Below, in pieces: positions 1 through 19,512 of a stretch of DNA of 20,916 bases; positions within the stretch are counted from its first letter, which is position 1; each line of letters opens with the position of its first letter. The stretch covers positions 1 through 20,916 of IMG/VR virus record IMGVR_UViG_3300048021_000504, one strand, 5' to 3'. Made by a program: the position numbers and the translations under genes. The notes beneath the pieces are model-generated. The model ran no database searches. It saw only the letters and a list, made by a program, of their open reading frames with translations, and was not told the DNA's origin. Source of the stretch: a virus.

Positions 1-452
1 TTTTCGCTGCTATGCACGGATCTCTTGTTACTTCCTCAATTATTAAGGAAACAACAGAAGATGTATCACAGAACTATGGCTATAAATTTGGTCAGGAAGA
101 GGAGACTTATAACATCGTTGCAGCTCATGGCTACTTCGGCAGACTAATATTTCAATATGCGTCTTTCAATAACTCTCGTGCTCTTCATTTCTTTCTTGGT
201 GCTTTCCCGGTTATTGGCATATGGCTAACATCCATGGGTATCTGCACTATGGCATTTAACTTGAATGGTTTTAACTTTAACCAGTCAGTTGTTGATGCTA
301 GTGGAAATGTAATTCCTACATGGGCTGATGTTTTAAACAGACAGTCTTTAGGTATGGAAGTAATGCATGAAAGAAATGCTCACAACTTCCCATTAGACTT
401 AGCTTCAACTGAGTCTACAACAGTTGCTTTGACTGCTCCTGCAATAGGTTAA
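1..452 (+). CDS. psbA: Photosystem II D1 protein, phage-encoded, 5' part missing
   Basis: D1 is the core subunit of photosystem II in the thylakoid membrane. It binds plastoquinone QB, the non-haem iron and the Mn cluster. The gene enters from the left edge; the first full codon is at base 3, about D1 residue 211. Visible landmarks in standard D1 numbering are His215 and His272 (iron ligands), His252 and the QB-pocket stretch Phe255-Ser264-Phe265, and the Mn-cluster segment [14 protein letters not shown], which contains His332, Glu333, His337, Asp342 and the mature C-terminus Ala344. A 15-residue tail follows, of the kind removed by CtpA. All key residues are intact, so the protein should be functional. 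Cyanophage psbA is known to replace host D1 during infection. Its place just before the capsid gene matches the late psbA position of P-SSP7-like cyanopodoviruses. Confidence 0.98.
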
Positions 453-583
453 TGTCACAGCAATCTGAAGGGGGAGCTTTCGGTAAAGCAAACGTCACCC
501 GTTATGGCTTTTGTAATGAAGAAGAAAAAGAGAAGAAAGAAACTGATAAAGAACTTTCTAACTCTGATAACTCTGATAACTAA
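452..583 (+). CDS. Small hypothetical protein, 43 aa, overlapping the psbA stop codon
   Basis: The ATG at 452 overlaps the psbA stop (TAATG), the same junction used by many real gene pairs in this window, so translation is probably coupled to psbA. A weak AGG lies 4 bases before it. The product starts [20 protein letters not shown], continues with a run of Glu and Lys, and ends in an acidic repeat, SNSDNSDN. There is no signal peptide or membrane helix. The TRYGF stretch recalls the segment before the helix of high-light-inducible (Hli) proteins, which often accompany phage psbA, but the chlorophyll-binding helix is absent, so I do not call it hli. It may be a remnant of such a gene or an unrelated small protein. 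Function is unknown. Confidence 0.6.
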   Translation: MSQQSEGGAFGKANVTRYGFCNEEEKEKKETDKELSNSDNSDN

Positions 584-626
584 TATCTTTATCATCTCTG
601 GTGTCACCCGACACTGGATGCCACGT

Positions 627-678
627 CCGTTCATCCCAACTGGGACGCATGAATCCTAAGCATGGAACGGGGCTTAGG
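627..678 (+). promoter_or_regulatory. Glutamine riboswitch, Downstream-peptide type
   Basis: The RNA folds as a three-stem junction with a pseudoknot. P1 pairs CCGTTC (627-632) with GAACGG (665-670). P2 is CCC (635-637) with GGG (642-644) around loop AACT. P3 pairs CATG (648-651) with CATG (661-664). The P3 loop CCTAAG (655-660) pairs perfectly with CTTAGG (673-678) beyond P1. From memory of the glnA/Downstream-peptide class, the order CGTTCA-CCC-loop-GGGACG-...-GGAACG with a loop-to-3' pseudoknot is its signature, and members bind L-glutamine. The pseudoknot strand ends six bases before the ribosome-binding site GGAG (684-687) of a 17-codon gene, a position suited to ligand control of translation. 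Pairing is seen in the sequence; ligand and direction of control are known for the family, not shown here. Confidence 0.88.
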
Positions 679-683
679 TATAT

Positions 684-687
684 GGAG
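684..687 (+). promoter_or_regulatory. Ribosome-binding site that sets the start of the riboswitch peptide
   Basis: GGAG lies six bases before the ATG at 694. In-frame ATGs at 649 and 682 lack such a site, and 649 is inside riboswitch stem P3. This site therefore decides for the short 17-codon reading. Confidence 0.7.
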
Positions 688-693
688 ATAGCT

Positions 694-747
694 ATGAAAG
701 TTACTTACGTATATCGTGGCGTTGCTTACACAAGAATAATCGGTTAA
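694..747 (+). CDS. Riboswitch-controlled 17-aa peptide with YRGVAY motif
   Basis: The product is MKVTYVYRGVAYTRIIG, then TAA. It sits directly behind the glutamine riboswitch and has a well-spaced GGAG site. Downstream-peptide RNAs are named for such short genes, so the pairing supports a real peptide despite its size. The core YRGVxY resembles the YRG motif of small cyanobacterial DUF4278 proteins. As I recall, that group includes PirA, a protein that binds the nitrogen regulator PII and affects arginine synthesis; this link is from memory and family likeness only. An in-frame extension to the ATG at 649 would give 32 residues but would have to read through the aptamer. A role in tuning host nitrogen metabolism by glutamine level is inference. 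Confidence 0.72.
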   Translation: MKVTYVYRGVAYTRIIG

Positions 748-931
748 GCGGTCTGGGAGGTGCAAGTCCTCCCTATTCAATTTGGGAAAAGCCCTCTGAG
801 GAGGATACCTTTTACCCGTCGACGGTGGGAAAAGACCACAAAACCTGTCAGTCTCAGGTTAGACTAATTAAGACTGCAACAATTCTAACGTTAGGAACGA
901 TCAATAATACCCTTAAATTTAACCATAAACA
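748..931 (+). other. Structured, gene-free leader before the capsid gene
   Basis: I see no convincing gene here. The first half looks richer in GC than the coding DNA around it and is full of inverted repeats. GGGAGG/CCTCCC (755-760/768-773) encloses a 7-base loop; CCGTCGACGG (816-825) is a perfect palindrome; AACCTG/CAGGTT (842-847/855-860) forms a hairpin that competes with AGTCT/AGACT (850-854/861-865). CTAACGTTAG (885-894) is another palindrome. GGTCT (750-754) can pair with AGACC (833-837) to close the first group. TGGGAAAAG occurs twice (783-791, 826-834). This could be the 5' leader and promoter region of the capsid transcript, an RNA stability or processing element, or an unclassified structured RNA. 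I could not place a phage RNA polymerase promoter with confidence. Confidence 0.45.
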
Positions 932-2092
932 ATGGCACAACAAAATTCAGGTAGCTCTCAGTTAGCTCAGTTAACCCGTCCGGGTGCGCTGAATGGCGGA
1001 ACTGATCCTAGAGCACTCTACCTTAAATTGTTCAGTGGAGAAATGTTTAAAGGCTTCCAGCACAATGCAATCGCAAGAGATCTCGTTATGAAGAGAACTC
1101 TTAAGAATGGAAAATCTTTACAGTTCATCTACACTGGACACACAAAAGCCGAGTTCCATACACCCGGCAACAGCATCATGGGTAACTCCGACGGAGCACC
1201 TCCAGTTGCTGAGAAGACTATCACATGTGATGATCTTCTAATCTCAAGTGCATTCGTTTACGAACTAGACGAAACACTTGCACACTACGAATTAAGAGGA
1301 GAGATCTCCAAGAAGATTGGATACGCTCTTGCTCAGAAGTACGACAGACTAATCTTTAGATCTATCGCTCGTGGTGCTAGAGCTGCTTCACCAGTCTCAA
1401 AGACTAACTTTGTAGAACCCGGTGGAACACAGATCAGAGTTGGTACAGGTAACGCAACTAATGCTTACGATGCTGCACTACTCGTATCAGCTTTCTATGA
1501 TGCTGCTGCTGCTCTTGACGAAAAAGGAGTTAGCTCTGACGGCAGAGTAGCCGTGCTAAACCCTCGTCAATACTACAGTCTTATAAACACTGTAAGTTCT
1601 GGTGTAATCACATCTGGTCTAATCAACCGTGACGCACAAGGAACAGCTTTACAGTCTGGACAGGGCGTAGTAGAGATTGCTGGTATCAAGATTTACAAGT
1701 CAATGAACATACCTTTCTTCAGTACTTATGGTACTAAGTATGGTTCTGCATCTGCGACTAATCCCGGAATCACATCTCCTACAAACGTAGGTTCATTCGT
1801 TGGTGAAGCTGTCGAAGACGCTGCTGCTGACGTAACTGGAATCAACAACGAGTACGGTGAAGAAACAGAATTCGCTAACTCATGTGGTTTGATTTTCCAG
1901 AAGGAAGGAGCTGGTGTGGTTGAGGCTATAGGTCCTCAAGTTCAGGTAACATCTGGAGACGTTTCAGTTGTCTACCAAGGAGACGTAATTTTAGGGCGTC
2001 TCGCAATGGGAGCAGATTACTTAAATCCTGCCGCATGTGTCGAGCTTATTGCCGGTGCTGCTGTTGGATCTTCAGGTAACGCTGCATTCTAA
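932..2092 (+). CDS. Major capsid protein (T7 gp10-like)
   Basis: This is the 386-residue shell protein of the icosahedral head, close in length to T7 gp10A (about 345) and typical of cyanopodoviruses. The N-terminus is Gln/Ser/Leu-rich, followed by an Ala- and Gly-rich HK97-fold-like chain. Assignment rests on general resemblance to cyanopodovirus capsid proteins, on its place between psbA and tail tube A, and on the strong terminator that follows. Codon choice differs from most neighbours, with many C-ending codons such as AAC, TAC, ATC and GAC, as expected for the most highly expressed gene. There is no good Shine-Dalgarno site before the ATG; the leader there is AT-rich (taaatttaaccataaaca). 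No scaffold gene is visible in the window; it would lie to the left of psbA. Confidence 0.93.
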   Translation: MAQQNSGSSQLAQLTRPGALNGGTDPRALYLKLFSGEMFKGFQHNAIARDLVMKRTLKNGKSLQFIYTGHTKAEFHTPGNSIMGNSDGAPPVAEKTITCDDLLISSAFVYELDETLAHYELRGEISKKIGYALAQKYDRLIFRSIARGARAASPVSKTNFVEPGGTQIRVGTGNATNAYDAALLVSAFYDAAAALDEKGVSSDGRVAVLNPRQYYSLINTVSSGVITSGLINRDAQGTALQSGQGVVEIAGIKIYKSMNIPFFSTYGTKYGSASATNPGITSPTNVGSFVGEAVEDAAADVTGINNEYGEETEFANSCGLIFQKEGAGVVEAIGPQVQVTSGDVSVVYQGDVILGRLAMGADYLNPAACVELIAGAAVGSSGNAAF

Positions 2093-13092: not shown

Positions 13093-15366
13093 ATGGCAAC
13101 ATTTACCGACAACGGTGGAGGTGCACCTAATGGTTCCGATCTGGAATTTACGTACACCTTCCCAGTCATACAAACTGAAGATGTAAAGGTTGCTCTAAAT
13201 GGAGTAACACAAGCGACAACTAAATATGCTGTTGACAATGTCAGCAACCCTACAAAAATAACTTTTAACAATACCAGTGTAGATAGCTCTGTACAAGAGA
13301 GTTCTGGAGCACCTAAATCTGGTGTACGTGTTAGAGTTTATAGAGAAACAACCGTTGGTAAATCTACAGGTGACGATGATCCTAAAGCTGTATATGCAGC
13401 CGGTTCTTCTATACGTGCTATAGATTTAAATGCCAACACAGAACAAGCATTATATGCAATTCACGAGTTACAAACTCGCCCTATAGAAACTGAAGATATA
13501 CAAGATTCAGCAGTTACATCATCTAAAATAGAAGATGGAACTATAGTTAATGCTGATATAAATGCTAGTGCAGCAATAGATGGATCAAAACTACAAATTT
13601 CTTCTGGCTCAGTAGCTGGTAGTATGTCTTCTGCTAATTTTACAAAGTTAGCTGGAATAGAAACTGGAGCTACAGCAGACCAGACAGCATCAGAAATAAG
13701 AACATTAGTTGAATCTGCAACAGATAGTAATGTATTTACTGATGCTGATCATACTAAGCTCGATGGTATAGAAACAGCAGCTACAGCAGATCAGACAGAT
13801 GCAGAAATAAGAACTGCTGTAGAAAGTGCTACTGACAGTAATGTATTTACTGATGCTGACCATACTAAATTAAATGGCATAGCGACTGGAGCTGACGTTA
13901 CTTCAACTAACTCTATAAATGCTTTAACTGATGTTAATACTGCTGGAGTAGCTGACGGAAAAATATTAAAGTACGACTCTTCAACTTCTAAATTTATCAT
14001 TGCCGATGACGGTGGTGGTGGAGGCGGTGGAGGTAGTTCTACATTTACAGGATTATCTGATACACCAGCTAACTTTGGTAGTGCTGCTGGTAAAACACTT
14101 AAAGTAAACTCTGCTGGTGATGCAGTTGAGTTTGTTACTGTAAGTGCAGCAACTTCTGATGTTGTAGATGACACTACACCTCAACTTGGTGGTAACTTAG
14201 ATGTACAAACAAATGAGATTACTACAAGCACAACTAATGGTAACATCAAGTTAACTCCTGATGGTACAGGAACTGTTGAAGTAAAAGGTAATGGAAGTAA
14301 TGATGCTTCAATAAAACTTAACTGTAGTAACAACAGTCATGGTCAAACAATTAAAGCACCGGCTCATAGCACAGGAGTAAGTAATACATTTACTTTACCC
14401 GGAACTGCTACAACTTCTCTTGGATCTGCTGGTGGTTTGCTAAGAAGTAATCAATCTGGAGCATTATCATTTGATACTACAGCTTATCTTCAAGCAAGCC
14501 AGCAAATAATAGGGTCAAGTCTTTTATTTACAGCAACAAATCAAAATATAATGTTTGATACTGACAATACGAATACTTATAATATTTCTTTTGTTGGTCC
14601 AAACACTTTAACAAAAACAAGTACTTTTACACTTCCAGAAGACGGAACTAACGGGCAATATTTAAAAACAAATGGAAGTGGTGTTCTGTCATTTGCTGAC
14701 GTTTCATCTACTTACAACATATCAATAAACACACTGTCTAGCTCTAGTGGCTCAGGTGGTGGTAGTGCAACCTTTAATGGTTCTGCTACAAGATTTACAT
14801 TATCTAATGCCGGAACAAATGCACAAGCTCATATTGTTAGCGTCAATGGAGTCATTCAGAAACCTAATAGTGGAACCAGTCCAAGCGAAGGATTTGCTAT
14901 TGATGGTAATGACATTATATTTGCCGCTGCCCCTGCTAGTGGTTCTGACTTCTTTATTATCACCCTCGGAAACGCAATAAGCATTGGTACTCCGAGTGAT
15001 AATACAGTTACATCTGCAAAGATTGTAGATGGATCTATTGTAAACGCTGATATAAATACTTCAGCAGCTATTGCTGGTAGTAAATTAGCAGACGATAGTA
15101 TAACAGAAACAAAATTAGATATACATGCAGCTCCTTCTGGAACTGACAAAGTACTTGGCTACACAGCTAATGGTATGGAGTGGGTTGTAGCAGAAGCTGG
15201 AGCAACAGGTGGAGGAACTGACAAAATCTTCTATGAAAATGGTCAAACCGTAACGACCAATTACACCATTACTAATAATACAAACGCCATGAGTGCTGGT
15301 CCAGTGACCATCAATAGTGGTATTGCTGTGACGATTGGTACTGGAGAAAACTGGACAATAGTATAA
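13093..15366 (+). CDS. Tail fibre protein (T7 gp17-like N-terminus, repeat-built shaft)
   Basis: The fibre has 757 residues (T7 gp17 has 553). Residues 1-135 are the T7-type tail-attachment domain, with FTYTFPVIQTEDVKVALNG and AIDLNANTEQALYAIHELQ. The shaft carries two near-perfect 37-residue repeats (KLxGIEtgATADQT...), a Gly8 hinge at residues 307-314, and duplicated VTSxKIxDGxIVNADIN segments near the start and end of the shaft. The last 48 residues (from base 15220, DKIFYENG to NWTIV) form a tip domain that recurs as a separate gene at 17115. It recognises the host surface at adsorption. Its stop overlaps the next gene (TAATG), and no clear ribosome-binding site precedes 13093. Confidence 0.92.
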   Translation: MATFTDNGGGAPNGSDLEFTYTFPVIQTEDVKVALNGVTQATTKYAVDNVSNPTKITFNNTSVDSSVQESSGAPKSGVRVRVYRETTVGKSTGDDDPKAVYAAGSSIRAIDLNANTEQALYAIHELQTRPIETEDIQDSAVTSSKIEDGTIVNADINASAAIDGSKLQISSGSVAGSMSSANFTKLAGIETGATADQTASEIRTLVESATDSNVFTDADHTKLDGIETAATADQTDAEIRTAVESATDSNVFTDADHTKLNGIATGADVTSTNSINALTDVNTAGVADGKILKYDSSTSKFIIADDGGGGGGGGSSTFTGLSDTPANFGSAAGKTLKVNSAGDAVEFVTVSAATSDVVDDTTPQLGGNLDVQTNEITTSTTNGNIKLTPDGTGTVEVKGNGSNDASIKLNCSNNSHGQTIKAPAHSTGVSNTFTLPGTATTSLGSAGGLLRSNQSGALSFDTTAYLQASQQIIGSSLLFTATNQNIMFDTDNTNTYNISFVGPNTLTKTSTFTLPEDGTNGQYLKTNGSGVLSFADVSSTYNISINTLSSSSGSGGGSATFNGSATRFTLSNAGTNAQAHIVSVNGVIQKPNSGTSPSEGFAIDGNDIIFAAAPASGSDFFIITLGNAISIGTPSDNTVTSAKIVDGSIVNADINTSAAIAGSKLADDSITETKLDIHAAPSGTDKVLGYTANGMEWVVAEAGATGGGTDKIFYENGQTVTTNYTITNNTNAMSAGPVTINSGIAVTIGTGENWTIV
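13645..13902 (+). repeat. Tandem 111-bp repeats in the tail fibre shaft
   Basis: Two full 37-codon copies (13645-13755 and 13756-13866) and a 12-codon partial copy (13867-13902) encode KLxGIExxATADQTxxEIRT followed by VESATDSNVFTDADHT. This repeat type is common in phage fibre shafts. The DNA copies differ at many third positions, so the duplication is not recent. Confidence 0.9.
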
Positions 15367-15905
15367 TGCCTATTACATTAAACGGGTCTGGCACAGTATC
15401 CGGTATATCCGCTGGTGGTTTACCAGACGGCATTATACAAAGTGCCGATTTAGCAACAGGAGTTGGTGGTAAAATATTACAATTTCAATCAGTTAAATAT
15501 GATACTTACCTTAGTACAACATCTTCATCTTATATAGATTCTGGACTTACTTGTAATATTACACCTATATCTTCTAATAGTAAAATTGTAATTGTTGGAA
15601 GAATACAACTTACTAAATTTAATTATACATGTATAGCAAGATTATTAAGAGATTCTACAGAAATAGGTAGTAACTCTGATAGTGGTACAAATACTGATTT
15701 ATTTACATTTTACACAAACTCATACGCATCCTTAGGTGTACCTTTTATGATGGATGACACACCTAATACTACAAGTCAAGTCACATATAAGTTACAAATA
15801 AAAAGTGATGGTGGAACTGCAACAATTTATGTAAATGGTCATAACAATAATACTGGGTCATATTATTCAGTATCTTATATGTCATTGATGGAGATAGCAG
15901 CATGA
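15366..15905 (+). CDS. Small tail-fibre-associated adhesin, type a (first copy)
   Basis: This 179-residue protein belongs to a family of six in this window. It has a short N-terminal module (MPITLNGSGTVSG) and a shared domain of about 145 residues: GKILQ near residue 36, CNITPISSNSKIVIV, LLRDSTEIGS, DDTPNTTSQVTYKLQ, IYVNG, and the ending SLMEIAA. The Ser/Thr/Asn-rich alternating pattern suggests an all-beta sandwich. Context behind the fibre suggests a receptor-binding or fibre-tip part; this is inferred. It starts on the fibre stop codon. Its own last codons contain GGAG (15890-15893), which serves as ribosome-binding site for the next gene, and the two overlap by ATGA. Confidence 0.8.
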   Translation: MPITLNGSGTVSGISAGGLPDGIIQSADLATGVGGKILQFQSVKYDTYLSTTSSSYIDSGLTCNITPISSNSKIVIVGRIQLTKFNYTCIARLLRDSTEIGSNSDSGTNTDLFTFYTNSYASLGVPFMMDDTPNTTSQVTYKLQIKSDGGTATIYVNGHNNNTGSYYSVSYMSLMEIAA

Positions 15906-16510
15906 GCCAATTAAAACTAACCGCAGACGGCGGTGGAGGCACAGTCTCCTTAAAAGGACCATCTACTACAACAGGTAATGCAGCTATTGAACTGACTGTA
16001 CCCGGAACTGGTAACAGCACATTAGCTACTACAGCAACTGCTGGTAAAGTTCTTCAAGTAAAACAAACAGTTAAAACAGACACAACAAGTACAACAAATA
16101 ATGATAGCTTTGAAGATATTTCTGGAATGAGTGTCACCATAACACCTTCAGCAACAAGCTCAAAAATTTTACTTATGGTTGATATGCGTCTTAGTTGTAA
16201 TGTAGAGAGAAATGTAGCTTATAGATTAATGAGAGGCTCAACACAAATTTACATGGGTGATGCTGCTGGCAGTAGAACAAGAGCAACAGGTGCAATTCGT
16301 ATGACAGATGGTGCAGATGCAGAAATGCAAACTGAAGGAGCAATATATCTTGATAGTCCTAGTACAACATCTGCAACAACTTATAAAGTTCAATGGACAA
16401 ATACTTATCATTCAGAGGCTAGTTATTTAAACAGACCGTTTGAGGATACAGACAATAACGATAGAGTTAGAGCAGCTTCATCAATAACAGTACAGGAGGT
16501 AGCAGCATAA
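15902..16510 (+). CDS. Small tail-fibre-associated adhesin, type b (first copy)
   Basis: This 202-residue member of the six-gene family starts with QLKLTADGGGGTVSLKGPS and a threonine-rich linker. The shared domain follows: GKVLQVKQTVKTDTTS, FEDISGMSVTITPSATSSKI, LMRGSTQIYMGDAAGS, IYLDSPSTTSATTYKVQW, YLNRP, and the ending ITVQEVAA. It overlaps the previous gene by four bases and the next start by one (TAATG), and its final codons carry a full AGGAGGT (16494-16500) for the next gene. The N-terminal module resembles a segment inside the fibre (TIKAPAHSTGVSNTFTLPG), so fibre and accessory proteins seem built from the same parts. Confidence 0.8.
   Translation: MSQLKLTADGGGGTVSLKGPSTTTGNAAIELTVPGTGNSTLATTATAGKVLQVKQTVKTDTTSTTNNDSFEDISGMSVTITPSATSSKILLMVDMRLSCNVERNVAYRLMRGSTQIYMGDAAGSRTRATGAIRMTDGADAEMQTEGAIYLDSPSTTSATTYKVQWTNTYHSEASYLNRPFEDTDNNDRVRAASSITVQEVAA
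16494..16500 (+). promoter_or_regulatory. Ribosome-binding site embedded in the conserved C-terminal codons
   Basis: AGGAGGT lies nine bases before the ATG at 16510 and encodes part of the Q-E-V-A-A ending of the upstream protein. Equivalent sites are GGAG at 15890 and 17965, GAGGT at 17101 and AGGA at 19496, each in the same place of the shared ending. Confidence 0.8.
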
Positions 16511-17115
16511 TGGCAACATTAAACGCAACAAATTTAAAACACGCTTCCTCTGGTTCTAACAATATTGTTTTAGCTAGTGATGGAAGTACAACTATATCTA
16601 ACCTGTCAGGTGGTGGTAAAATTCTTCAAGTTGTTCAAAGCACTAAACAAGATGCTTGGAGTTATACAGCAAATACTATTGCACCAGTAGATATAACTGG
16701 TACAGATCAAAATGGTAGTGGCTCAGTATTTTGTGTAAAAATTACACCTTCATCTGCAAGTAGTAAAATATTATTTATGTGTAGTTTCATGCTAGGTATG
16801 GGAGGAGGAGCTGCATATGTACAAGGTTTTATGAAAAGAGGTACTACTACACTTTTACCCGGAACTCATGGAACTGGAAATAGTGTGAACTGTACTTTTG
16901 GTAGGAGTTCAACAGGATCATCATACTATGTAGAAAATGTAGGTTTTACATATCTAGATAGTCCAAGTAGTACTTCAGAGTTGACATATAAAGTACAGTT
17001 TGGAAAAGGTGATGGCAGTTATGAAGTTTACGTTAACAGACCAGCTACCTTAGATAACCAACCTTACAACACTCTTGGTAGTTCTACTCTTACAGTTACA
17101 GAGGTAGCAGCATAA
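16510..17115 (+). CDS. Small tail-fibre-associated adhesin, type c (first copy)
   Basis: This 201-residue family member has the N-terminal module NIVLASDGSTTISNLSGGG, shared with the gene at 18904. Family motifs follow: GKILQVVQSTKQDAWS, VKITPSSASSKILFM, FMKRGTTTLLPG, FTYLDSPSSTSELTYKVQFG, VYVNRP, and the ending LTVTEVAA. It is slightly more Gly- and Cys-rich than its paralogs. The stop overlaps the next start (TAATG), with GAGGT just upstream as ribosome-binding site. The role is inferred from context as an adhesin or fibre-tip component. Confidence 0.8.
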   Translation: MATLNATNLKHASSGSNNIVLASDGSTTISNLSGGGKILQVVQSTKQDAWSYTANTIAPVDITGTDQNGSGSVFCVKITPSSASSKILFMCSFMLGMGGGAAYVQGFMKRGTTTLLPGTHGTGNSVNCTFGRSSTGSSYYVENVGFTYLDSPSSTSELTYKVQFGKGDGSYEVYVNRPATLDNQPYNTLGSSTLTVTEVAA

Positions 17116-17435
17116 TGGCACTAACAAAAATAACAGGTGGAGATGGTATTAAAGACAGTACCATCAAAGAAGCCGATCTTAATATAGATAATACTCCTAC
17201 AAATGATTATGTACTAACTGCAAAATCCAGTGCAGCCGGAGGTCTTACATGGGCTGAAGGTAGTGCTGGTGCAGCAGGCGGTGGGTCGGATAAAATTTTT
17301 TGGGAGAATGGGACAACAGTAACAACTAGCTATACGATTACCAATAATCATAATGCTGGTACGTTTGGTCCTATCACAGTAAACTCAGGAGCTACAGTCA
17401 CTGTAGGTTCTGGCGAAACTTGGGTAATAATATAA
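17115..17435 (+). CDS. Free-standing fibre-tip protein, 106 aa
   Basis: The last 48 residues (DKIFWENG to TWVII) align without gaps to the C-terminus of the tail fibre, with 32 identities by my count. The preceding part (ADLNIDNTPTNDYVLTA... GLTWAEGSAGAAGGG) matches the fibre's pre-tip segment in pattern (TKLDIHAAPSGTDKVLGY... MEWVVAEAGATGGG). It therefore looks like the end of a second fibre whose shaft and attachment domain were lost, kept as its own gene with a good start and ribosome-binding site. It may join the fibre as an alternative tip or chaperone; function is inferred. It opens block B of the duplication. Confidence 0.78.
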   Translation: MALTKITGGDGIKDSTIKEADLNIDNTPTNDYVLTAKSSAAGGLTWAEGSAGAAGGGSDKIFWENGTTVTTSYTITNNHNAGTFGPITVNSGATVTVGSGETWVII

Positions 17436-17980
17436 TGCCAGTAACAATAAATGGAACAAGCGGTCTAGTAACCGCAACAACTTTTAGTGGAAGTAGTCTG
17501 TCTGGTATAGATACAGGTAAAATTCTTCAAGTTGTTTCAACAACTAAAACAGATACAGCGTCAACTAACTCAACTAGCTTTGTGACAACAGGTCTTGAAC
17601 AAGCAATTACTATAACTTCTGGAAACAAAGTTTTAATAACGATGGATATGTATGTTGGAGCAATATCTGGATATAGTATAGCTTTTCAACTTTATAATGG
17701 TAGTTCACAGGTAACAGCTTTTCAAGGTGATGATAATGGTGGTTCTATTAGAGGTTTTGCTGGAGATTTTATAACTTCTGTTCGTTATGGTCAAGTATCA
17801 GCCGCACACCAGTTTTTAGACACACCCTCTGGAACTTCGCAAAACTACAAAGTTTATTTTCGAAATGGTTACAGTACTACTAGTGCAAATGTTTATTTAA
17901 ATAGACCTGAACAAAACCCTACACATGCTCAATCAGTTGCAACTTGTTCAACTTTAACACTTATGGAGATAGCAGCATGA
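17435..17980 (+). CDS. Small tail-fibre-associated adhesin, type a (second copy)
   Basis: I choose the ATG at 17435 (181 residues) because it overlaps the preceding stop (TAATG) and gives MPVTINGTSGL, aligned with the start of the 15366 gene; an upstream ATG at 17420 would add five residues from inside the previous gene. Family motifs are GKILQVVSTTKTDTAS, ITITSGNKVLITM, LYNGSSQ, FLDTPSGTSQNYKVYF, VYLNRPEQNP, and the ending LTLMEIAA. The final codons carry GGAG (17965-17968), and TGA overlaps the next ATG. It diverges clearly from its first copy, so the duplication is old or shaped by exchange with other phages. Confidence 0.8.
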   Translation: MPVTINGTSGLVTATTFSGSSLSGIDTGKILQVVSTTKTDTASTNSTSFVTTGLEQAITITSGNKVLITMDMYVGAISGYSIAFQLYNGSSQVTAFQGDDNGGSIRGFAGDFITSVRYGQVSAAHQFLDTPSGTSQNYKVYFRNGYSTTSANVYLNRPEQNPTHAQSVATCSTLTLMEIAA

Positions 17981-18564
17981 CAGTAAAATTAGTCGGATCT
18001 ACCTCTGGGTCAGTATCCTTACAGGCTCCAGCATCAACATCTGGTGGTGCACATAGAGTTTTAACTTTGCCAGATGCAGACGCTACACTGTTATCATCAG
18101 CTTCTAGTGTTGGTAAAATTCTTCAAGTTATTTCAACAACTAAAACTGATGCTGCAAGTCAAGCCTTAACTGGATCAGGTAACTTTTTTGATATATCAGG
18201 AATGTCTGTTTCAATTACACCCTCAAGTTCAAGTAATAAAGTACTTGTTATGACAACAGTTGCCGTTGCTTGTAATGATGCAGATCAAAACAACTTTATT
18301 CTATTAAGAAGAGACTCCACTGATATTGCTAAAGGTACAGCAGGTGGCACTACTAATGGTTCTTTTTATCATAGAGCCCGTAATACTTTTGCACCAGAAA
18401 ATATTAGTGTGCATTTTTTAGATAGTCCATCTTCTACAAGTACACTCACTTACAAAGTCAGGTGGTCAGGAGAAAATGGTGATACTTATTTTATTAACAG
18501 AAATACTAGTAATACAAATGAAGGAATGATCTCCTCTATAACAGTTATGGAAGTAGCAGCTTAA
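17977..18564 (+). CDS. Small tail-fibre-associated adhesin, type b (second copy)
   Basis: The start at 17977 (195 residues) is chosen because it overlaps the previous stop (ATGA), sits eight bases after GGAG, and aligns with the 15902 gene; a more upstream ATG at 17944 lies inside the previous gene. Motifs are VKLVGSTSGSVSLQAP, LTLPDAD, GKILQVISTTKTDAAS, DISGMSVSITPSSSSNKVLV, LRRDSTDIAKG, HFLDSPSSTSTLTYKVRW, YFINRNT, and the ending ITVMEVAA. Unlike the other members, its end is not joined to the next gene: a 28-base AT-rich gap with a T8 run follows, where the extra 99-residue gene was probably inserted. Confidence 0.8.
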   Translation: MTVKLVGSTSGSVSLQAPASTSGGAHRVLTLPDADATLLSSASSVGKILQVISTTKTDAASQALTGSGNFFDISGMSVSITPSSSSNKVLVMTTVAVACNDADQNNFILLRRDSTDIAKGTAGGTTNGSFYHRARNTFAPENISVHFLDSPSSTSTLTYKVRWSGENGDTYFINRNTSNTNEGMISSITVMEVAA

Positions 18565-18592
18565 CAATTAACAAACAAATTTTTTTTAAACA

Positions 18593-18892
18593 ATGGCATT
18601 AGATCACGAAGCAATCTACTCTGCATACGCAGGCACAGTAGTTTCAATAGACGACTCCGCAGGAGCGTTTGACAAAGACGGTAAATCAGTTACCTTAGAC
18701 GCAGTTAAGGTGGCATCAGCGAGAACTTCTCTTGATGCAGCCGCAGCCGCAATCAAATATAAATCTGACAGAGCAGCAGCTTTCGCCTCAGTAGGTGACC
18801 AGCTCGACATGCAGTATTGGGACGCAGTAAACGGAACAACTACATGGAAAACTCACGTTGCAAAAGTAAAATCAGATAACCCTAAACCATAG
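18593..18892 (+). CDS. Small tail-associated protein with GDQLD motif, 99 aa
   Basis: The ending AAFASVGDQLDMQYWDAVNG, followed by a Lys-rich tail finishing in DNPKP, is a pattern I know from small proteins next to tail-fibre genes in cyanophages and other tailed phages (YPSIGDQLD...), often annotated as tail-fibre or virion-associated. The N-terminus has IDDSAGAFDKDGKSVTLD, then Ala-rich helix. It is more GC-rich than the flanking adhesin genes and uses many C-ending and GCA/GCC codons. It breaks the otherwise collinear duplicated blocks, so I infer insertion from another phage. There is no ribosome-binding site before the ATG; the leader is AT-rich, as before the capsid gene. Function is unknown. 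Confidence 0.75.
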   Translation: MALDHEAIYSAYAGTVVSIDDSAGAFDKDGKSVTLDAVKVASARTSLDAAAAAIKYKSDRAAAFASVGDQLDMQYWDAVNGTTTWKTHVAKVKSDNPKP

Positions 18893-18897
18893 GAGGG
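18891..18897 (+). promoter_or_regulatory. Strong ribosome-binding site for the 18904 gene
   Basis: AGGAGGG overlaps the stop codon of the 99-residue gene and lies six bases before the ATG at 18904. It is one of the strongest such sites in the window. Confidence 0.85.
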
Positions 18898-18903
18898 TAA
18901 AAG

Positions 18904-19512
18904 ATGTCACGAATAATCGTAGACGCAGTTCGTAACTCGTCAGCTAGTTCTGATGGTATTACATTAGCTTCAGACGGTAGTGTTACCATTCCCGGTAATG
19001 CTACTTGTTCTGGTACAGCTACAGGATTTGGTATAGGCGGTAAGCTTCTACAAACAATAATGGTAGAAAAAACAGACACTACTTCTCATAACTCTACTAC
19101 TACTATACAAGATATAACAGGTATGACTGTTAATATTACACCCTCTGCTAGTACGAGTAAAATTTTAGTTACCTCCTGTTTGCAAGTTGTTACTGTACAA
19201 GGTCAATACAGTTTTGCTTTGTATCTAATGAGAGATAGTACAAATCTTTCTAGAGGTGACGCTAGTGGTTCTCACAGAACTCGAGCTACTTTTGGTGGGT
19301 TAAGTGATGGTGGTAATGAATATGACTTAAGACCTTTTACTATTTCATATTTAGATTCACCTAACACAACAAGTCAAGTTACATATAAATGGAGATGGAA
19401 TAACCCTTCCCACAACCAAATAATATATCTAAACAGACCTTATGGATTTGCAGATGGTGGTTATAGCGTTATGACAAGTTCTAATATAATTGTACAGGAA
19501 ATAGCAGCATAG
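18904..19512 (+). CDS. Small tail-fibre-associated adhesin, type c (second copy)
   Basis: This 202-residue protein is the last of the six paralogs. Its N-terminal module (GITLASDGSVTIPGNATCSG) matches the 16510 gene. Family motifs are GKLLQTIMVEKTDTTS, DITGMTVNITPSASTSKILV, LMRDSTNLSRGDASGS, ISYLDSPNTTSQVTYKWRW, IYLNRPYG, and the ending IIVQEIAA. A strong AGGAGGG site precedes it. Its final codons hold AGGA and overlap the next gene through TAGTG, so coupling continues into the membrane-protein genes downstream. Confidence 0.8.
   Translation: MSRIIVDAVRNSSASSDGITLASDGSVTIPGNATCSGTATGFGIGGKLLQTIMVEKTDTTSHNSTTTIQDITGMTVNITPSASTSKILVTSCLQVVTVQGQYSFALYLMRDSTNLSRGDASGSHRTRATFGGLSDGGNEYDLRPFTISYLDSPNTTSQVTYKWRWNNPSHNQIIYLNRPYGFADGGYSVMTSSNIIVQEIAA

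Follow-up and report, generated by a model that had tools for sequence, protein, structure and literature searches.

A glutamine-II riboswitch ahead of a short phage ORF

The viral DNA analysed here, a stretch of 20,916 nucleotides (the window), is a fragment of a T7-like cyanophage whose closest record is P-GSP1 (81.7% over 380–1100). It carries an RNA element that sequence and structure model confirm as a genuine glutamine-II riboswitch (type 2 glutamine, Downstream-peptide). We put the probability at roughly three in four that this riboswitch acts in cis on the translation of a phage-encoded 17-residue peptide with a single YRG unit. The RF01704 match obtained by cmscan spans the full model length (E = 4.4e-9) and lies above the gathering cut-off of 33 bits, whereas no other family reached its gathering score anywhere in the window; other phage copies score 46–59 bits with the same model. 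The original prediction of a glutamine riboswitch at 627–678, to be checked with Infernal against Rfam, is therefore upheld.

The anatomy of the element was read by placing the window sequence onto the numbering of the crystal structure (PMC6698751), which gives a stacked P1-PK-P2 rod. The three junction stems that had been described are not part of this fold, since a three-stem junction belongs to glutamine-I. Six pairs do exist where a 6-bp pseudoknot had been proposed, but they divide into a pseudoknot of five base pairs (628–632/665–669) and an additional long-range pair, 648:670, equivalent to C19:G41. A662:G671 corresponds to A33:G42 and G647 occupies the place of G18; the roles of G18 and C19 in the linking strand are those given in the crystal paper (PMC6698751), and every contact position named there is present in the window. 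The element does end close to a ribosome-binding site (RBS), although the Shine-Dalgarno sequence (SD) GGAG at 684–687(+) follows P2 after five bases rather than six, with the start codon at 694.

Table 1. Features of the riboswitch locus, in window coordinates
Feature	Position	Strand	Evidence
psbA (D1), 3' part	3..452	+	Pfam Photo_RC match, E 5.9e-17
43-codon ORF outside the switch, start overlapping psbA stop (TAATG)	452..583	+	sequence
P0 leader strand, partner 715–722 (YRG codons)	618..625	+	77% of cells paired vs at most 52% slid
Glutamine-II aptamer	625..678	+	RF01704, 48.1 bits
Pseudoknot 5' strand CGUUC, partner 665–669	628..632	+	invariant in homologs except 5'-truncated lineage
P1 hairpin, 634–637 with 642–645	634..645	+	compensatory change in 4/4 pairs, 97.7% paired
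Linking strand CGCAUG, including G18 (647) and C19 (648)	646..651	+	CGCA and final G invariant in alignment A1
P2, 655–661 with 672–678; loop holds pseudoknot 3' strand 665–669	655..678	+	compensatory change in 7/7 pairs, 99.3% paired
RBS hairpin, 678–693 with 699–714; SD hidden	678..714	+	84.6% of cells paired, covariation 0.228
Putative regulated ORF, 17 codons, MKVTYVYRGVAYTRIIG, single YRG unit (DUF4278-like)	694..747	+	YRGxxY ORF after 147/153 aptamers
Separate conserved structured RNA before capsid gene, neighbour of the switch	755..840	+	46-sequence alignment, covarying stems
Major capsid protein	932..2092	+	Pfam Gp10A-like, E 3.5e-72

The aptamer is conserved except in one sublineage

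P-GSP1, P-SSP7, P-SSP2, P-SSP3, P-SSP10, 9515-10a, S-TIP37 and others carry the element in the equivalent interval from psbA to the capsid gene. A search model built from 20 copies and applied to 93 loci, which had been fetched via the capsid gene or as phage records, returned 72 matches. In many of the loci lacking a match the sequence available before the capsid gene is short, though L087, for one, has 1.6 kb. Across 60 distinct homologous rows, pairing is retained in 98.2% of cells, and the covariation score of 0.369 drops to 0.060 or less once the partners are slid, indicating that the structure is not due to chance. Compensatory changes at this locus in relatives had been suggested as a check, in the stems and the pseudoknot alike. 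They occur in 11 of the 17 aptamer pairs, which are all 11 pairs of P1 and P2, each changed on both sides; the pseudoknot strands, in contrast, are invariant in intact homologs and never covary, and so contribute no covariation support. C19:G41 and the binding-site nucleotides, present in the window, are likewise invariant in intact homologs.

The pseudoknot is not kept everywhere, however. In S-SBP1 (locus L008, 2483–2536) and its relatives (L066, L077, L083, L091, L078, L070 and L068) other sequence stands in place of the 5' half of the aptamer, and the pseudoknot 5' strand is lost without compensation, whereas P2, part of the linking strand and the YRG ORF are retained. Judged from sequence, this sublineage has apparently lost glutamine control, and its truncated aptamer with the ORF still kept counts against our preferred explanation. 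An element that has ceased to switch, and is kept as a structure for mRNA stabilisation or processing, could tolerate such a loss of its 5' half and would agree with modelling that predicts no switching (see below). It would not account for glutamine-site positions that are invariant in intact copies while the surrounding stems change freely, the pattern to be expected from selection on ligand binding, and we consider it the least probable of the readings discussed here.

The adjacent ORF encodes a single YRG unit

The first start codon with an SD downstream of the aptamer is that at 694, opening MKVTYVYRGVAYTRIIG. The 153 distinct phage-type aptamers of Table 1 were gathered by a pattern that fixes the pseudoknot strands, and this set was therefore not used for judging the pseudoknot. 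Behind them the short YRGxxY ORFs start mostly about 23–27 nt past G40, and the products mostly have 13–42 residues, some with an N-terminal extension. Variation in the Y, R, G and Y codons is confined to third positions, save for one AGA arginine codon; only this third-position variation is informative, because the set was selected on the amino-acid motif.

YRGxxY is the core of DUF4278 (PF14105), the protein type found behind the Prochlorococcus copies of the riboswitch. The window peptide MKVTYVYRGVAYTRIIG gave no Pfam match, and longer phage versions score at most 18.3 bits with DUF4278, below the gathering cut-off of 25.3, whereas host peptides score 38–39 bits; both observations count against the preferred explanation. 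Alignment of phage with host peptides by hhalign nevertheless gave a probability of 85% (E 6.3e-6) over one YRG unit, and it is one unit that the phage proteins contain, against mostly two or three in the host proteins. All 41 genomes searched (the genus of a Prochlorococcus genome) have two to eight riboswitch copies each, and 58 of the 60 aptamer copies read, two of them from phage, stand before YRG ORFs. Short ORFs behind Downstream-peptide RNAs were described by Weinberg et al. (PMC2864571), and the type 2 glutamine riboswitches of picocyanobacteria precede DUF4278 genes whose expression is activated by glutamine (PMC6316151). By its sequence the phage ORF, previously unannotated, resembles a nitrogen-related gene of the cyanobacterial host. 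It is probably this ORF, and not the capsid gene, that the phage couples to the nitrogen status of the cell it infects.

The ORF might instead be a regulatory leader peptide, functionless in itself, whose glutamine-gated translation affects the downstream RNA or mRNA stability. Its usual length of 13–42 codons and the second structured RNA that adjoins it in many phages are consistent with such a role, but we regard it as unlikely: YRGxxY is kept while third positions vary, the same motif builds larger host proteins, and other genes often stand between the ORF and the second RNA. For a peptide that is itself the functional product, we tentatively propose, at somewhat less than even odds, that marine T7-like cyanophages carry a minimised DUF4278 gene, a one-unit copy of the glutamine-controlled one of the host, with a riboswitch and an RBS hairpin, and that the product acts on the partner of the host multi-unit YRG proteins, steering nitrogen assimilation late in infection. 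If true, this would make the peptide a metabolic effector of the phage under the direct control of a host metabolite; its effect on host nitrogen metabolism is one that we infer.

A conserved hairpin pairs the SD with the peptide's own codons

In the fold of 600–760 the RBS hairpin is composed of the 5' UTR and codons 2–7 of the ORF, and the start codon opens the loop. In 51 diverse sequences its paired fraction (Table 1) compares with at most 50.5% when the strands are slid and its covariation score with at most 0.084, and both sides have changed in 8 of the 15 pairs. The basal pair uses base 678, which is also the closing base of P2. That a conserved hairpin pairs the SD with codons of the peptide itself is consistent with a translational ON switch, and the class is described as an ON switch, probably translational (PMC6698751). 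Support for helix P0 (618–625/715–722) is moderate: swapping leader and downstream strands among loci gave z = −8.3, and −9.9 within class, in statistics that ignore relatedness. In some other phage groups the leader pairs instead with the SD or with the bases just before the start codon. A further pairing noticed by eye, of the pseudoknot strand with the SD (UUCAU with AUGGA, 630–634/682–686), was rejected as a means of SD sequestration, being absent in relatives with a different SD.

In the mechanism that we propose for translational control, the SD and start region (684–696) would be locked in the hairpin with the peptide codons when glutamine is absent, and the hairpin would be stacked with helix P0. 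At high glutamine the pseudoknot and P2 would be stabilised, P2 would capture the shared base 678, and the rigid PK-P2 rod would pull the stack of P0 and hairpin apart, such that ribosomes could start. A nitrogen-rich infected cell would then let the phage produce a single-unit form of the DUF4278 peptides that glutamine controls in the host. Glutamine binding and the ON direction are taken here from the literature on the class, and while the parts of the platform are supported by the comparisons above, we infer the switching step from the riboswitch class. Modelled accessibility of the SD in 137 loci differs hardly at all between free (0.34) and bound-like (0.37) states, and the window keeps its RBS hairpin in either state, in a nearest-neighbour energy model that holds neither the pseudoknot nor the ligand. 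This near-equality in the modelled states counts against translational control by the riboswitch.

psbA and the capsid gene are probably neighbours rather than targets

The riboswitch had been placed between psbA and the capsid gene and proposed to link nitrogen state with photosynthesis and virion production. The position is correct, except that the 43-codon ORF precedes the element and the 17-codon ORF follows it, making the short YRG ORF the adjacent gene. The functional link is not supported: four genes separate the cassette of riboswitch and ORF from the capsid gene in P-SSP10 and 9515-10a, and the element occurs with no psbA annotated nearby in S-TIP28 and MedDCM-OCT-S28-C3. As other genes can intervene and psbA can be absent, the association is positional only, and on gene order we reject either gene as the regulated one.

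Control of the late operon, including the capsid gene, through transcription termination or antitermination would make sense of the position of the element, which in most loci precedes the capsid gene and shares its strand. Besides the four intervening genes, however, the closeness of the short ORF's SD to P2, the window's lack of a T-run after P2 and the conserved structured leader that the capsid gene has of its own, at short distance, all argue against it, and we think it even less likely than a leader peptide.

This separate RNA lies in the interval of about 180 nt between the YRG ORF and the capsid start. It is about 85 nt long, ends 49–112 nt before the capsid start and was found in 63 capsid-anchored loci (alignment A4); an Rfam search of the window and of ten of the loci assigned it to no family. 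The first hairpin has either a T-arm-like form, GGGAGG-UGCAAGU-CCUCCC, with canonical UUCGAUU or UUCAAGU loops in S-TIP37 and L014, or an alternative form, GAG-GCACCUCAGAGUCGGAC-CUC. It is followed by a covarying UACG-type hairpin, GAUACC, CCGUC-GACGG and a last hairpin, GUGG-GAUAGA-CCAC, with compensatory variants. ARAGORN detected no tRNA in the T-arm-like hairpin. We regard the RNA at 755–840 as a candidate new RNA family. On the opposite strand of the region after the YRG ORF in MedDCM-OCT-S28-C3 (L012, 2057–2105(−)) there is a PhotoRC-I match of 26.1 bits, below the cut-off of 45.

Relation to known glutamine riboswitches

The phage copies share with the glutamine-II RNAs of marine picocyanobacteria the P1-PK-P2 fold, the binding-site positions and the short YRG/DUF4278 ORF directly behind (PMC2864571, PMC6316151). 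They differ in having their own sequence type, GACGCAUG ... CAUGGAACGGGG, in standing inside a gene cluster, and in encoding a one-unit YRG peptide rather than two or three units. Only two genome contigs match the phage sequence type, and both proved to be contigs of phage, carrying psbA and capsid genes, that lie within other assemblies. The crystallised glutamine-II RNA is not phage-derived as far as matches tell, as it has none in phages or viral contigs and only partial ones in host genomes. Unrecognised phage copies may be among the 634 Downstream-peptide RNAs of 2010, some of which were taken from marine metagenomes.

Yfr6 of Prochlorococcus MED4 and SS120 similarly combines a riboswitch leader with a small conserved ORF of 33 residues (PMC1242208, PMC2518516), but it is transcribed in the host as a unit of its own, from a mapped start and with an antisense RNA, whereas the phage copy lies within the late gene cluster. 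Glutamine riboswitches are also known from other marine phages, as glnA RNA (glutamine-I) in T4-like cyanophages (PMC9964418) and near tmRNA genes in pelagiphages and a methylophage (PMC9004378). Those are described as glnA-type, stand with other genes in other phage groups, and no YRG peptide is reported with them. The Synechocystis glutamine synthetase (GS) inactivating factor IF17 (gifB) has an N-terminal DUF4278 under a glutamine riboswitch (PMC6316151); the phage peptide consists of one YRG unit only, with nothing like the rest of IF17 and no IF-like (IF7/IF17) region beyond that unit. The riboswitch class is thus known, while for its use with a YRG peptide in T7-like cyanophages we found no description in a search of mostly open-access literature.

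The cassette is present in sequenced cyanopodoviruses (P-SSP7, P-GSP1, P-SSP2/3/10 and 9515-10a), with both riboswitch and peptide unannotated in most records, and it would allow one to test directly whether a lytic phage reads its host's nitrogen status. The function of the picocyanobacterial peptides behind glutamine-II riboswitches is still unproven; the one YRG unit retained in the phage shows which part is sufficient to be selected and provides a small handle for finding the partner.

Other features of the window

Directly 5' of the riboswitch leader, at 600–615, is a small hairpin, GGUGUC-ACCC-GACACU, the sequence of which (gtcacccgacactgg) is also present in P-GSP1, L014 and L016–L018. 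The 43-codon ORF gave no match in a PHROG search. ORFs related to it come after, not before, the riboswitch cassette in, for example, phage L022, which indicates that either the cassette or the ORF has moved. Further along the window, 15366–19512 contains six paralogous ORFs of about 180–206 residues, 26–36% identical to the first. Four of the six match the C-terminal part of the tail-fibre PHROG phrog_6942, and 17115–17435 is similar to the end of the fibre-like ORF 13093–15366; the region is apparently an array of duplicated fibre tips.
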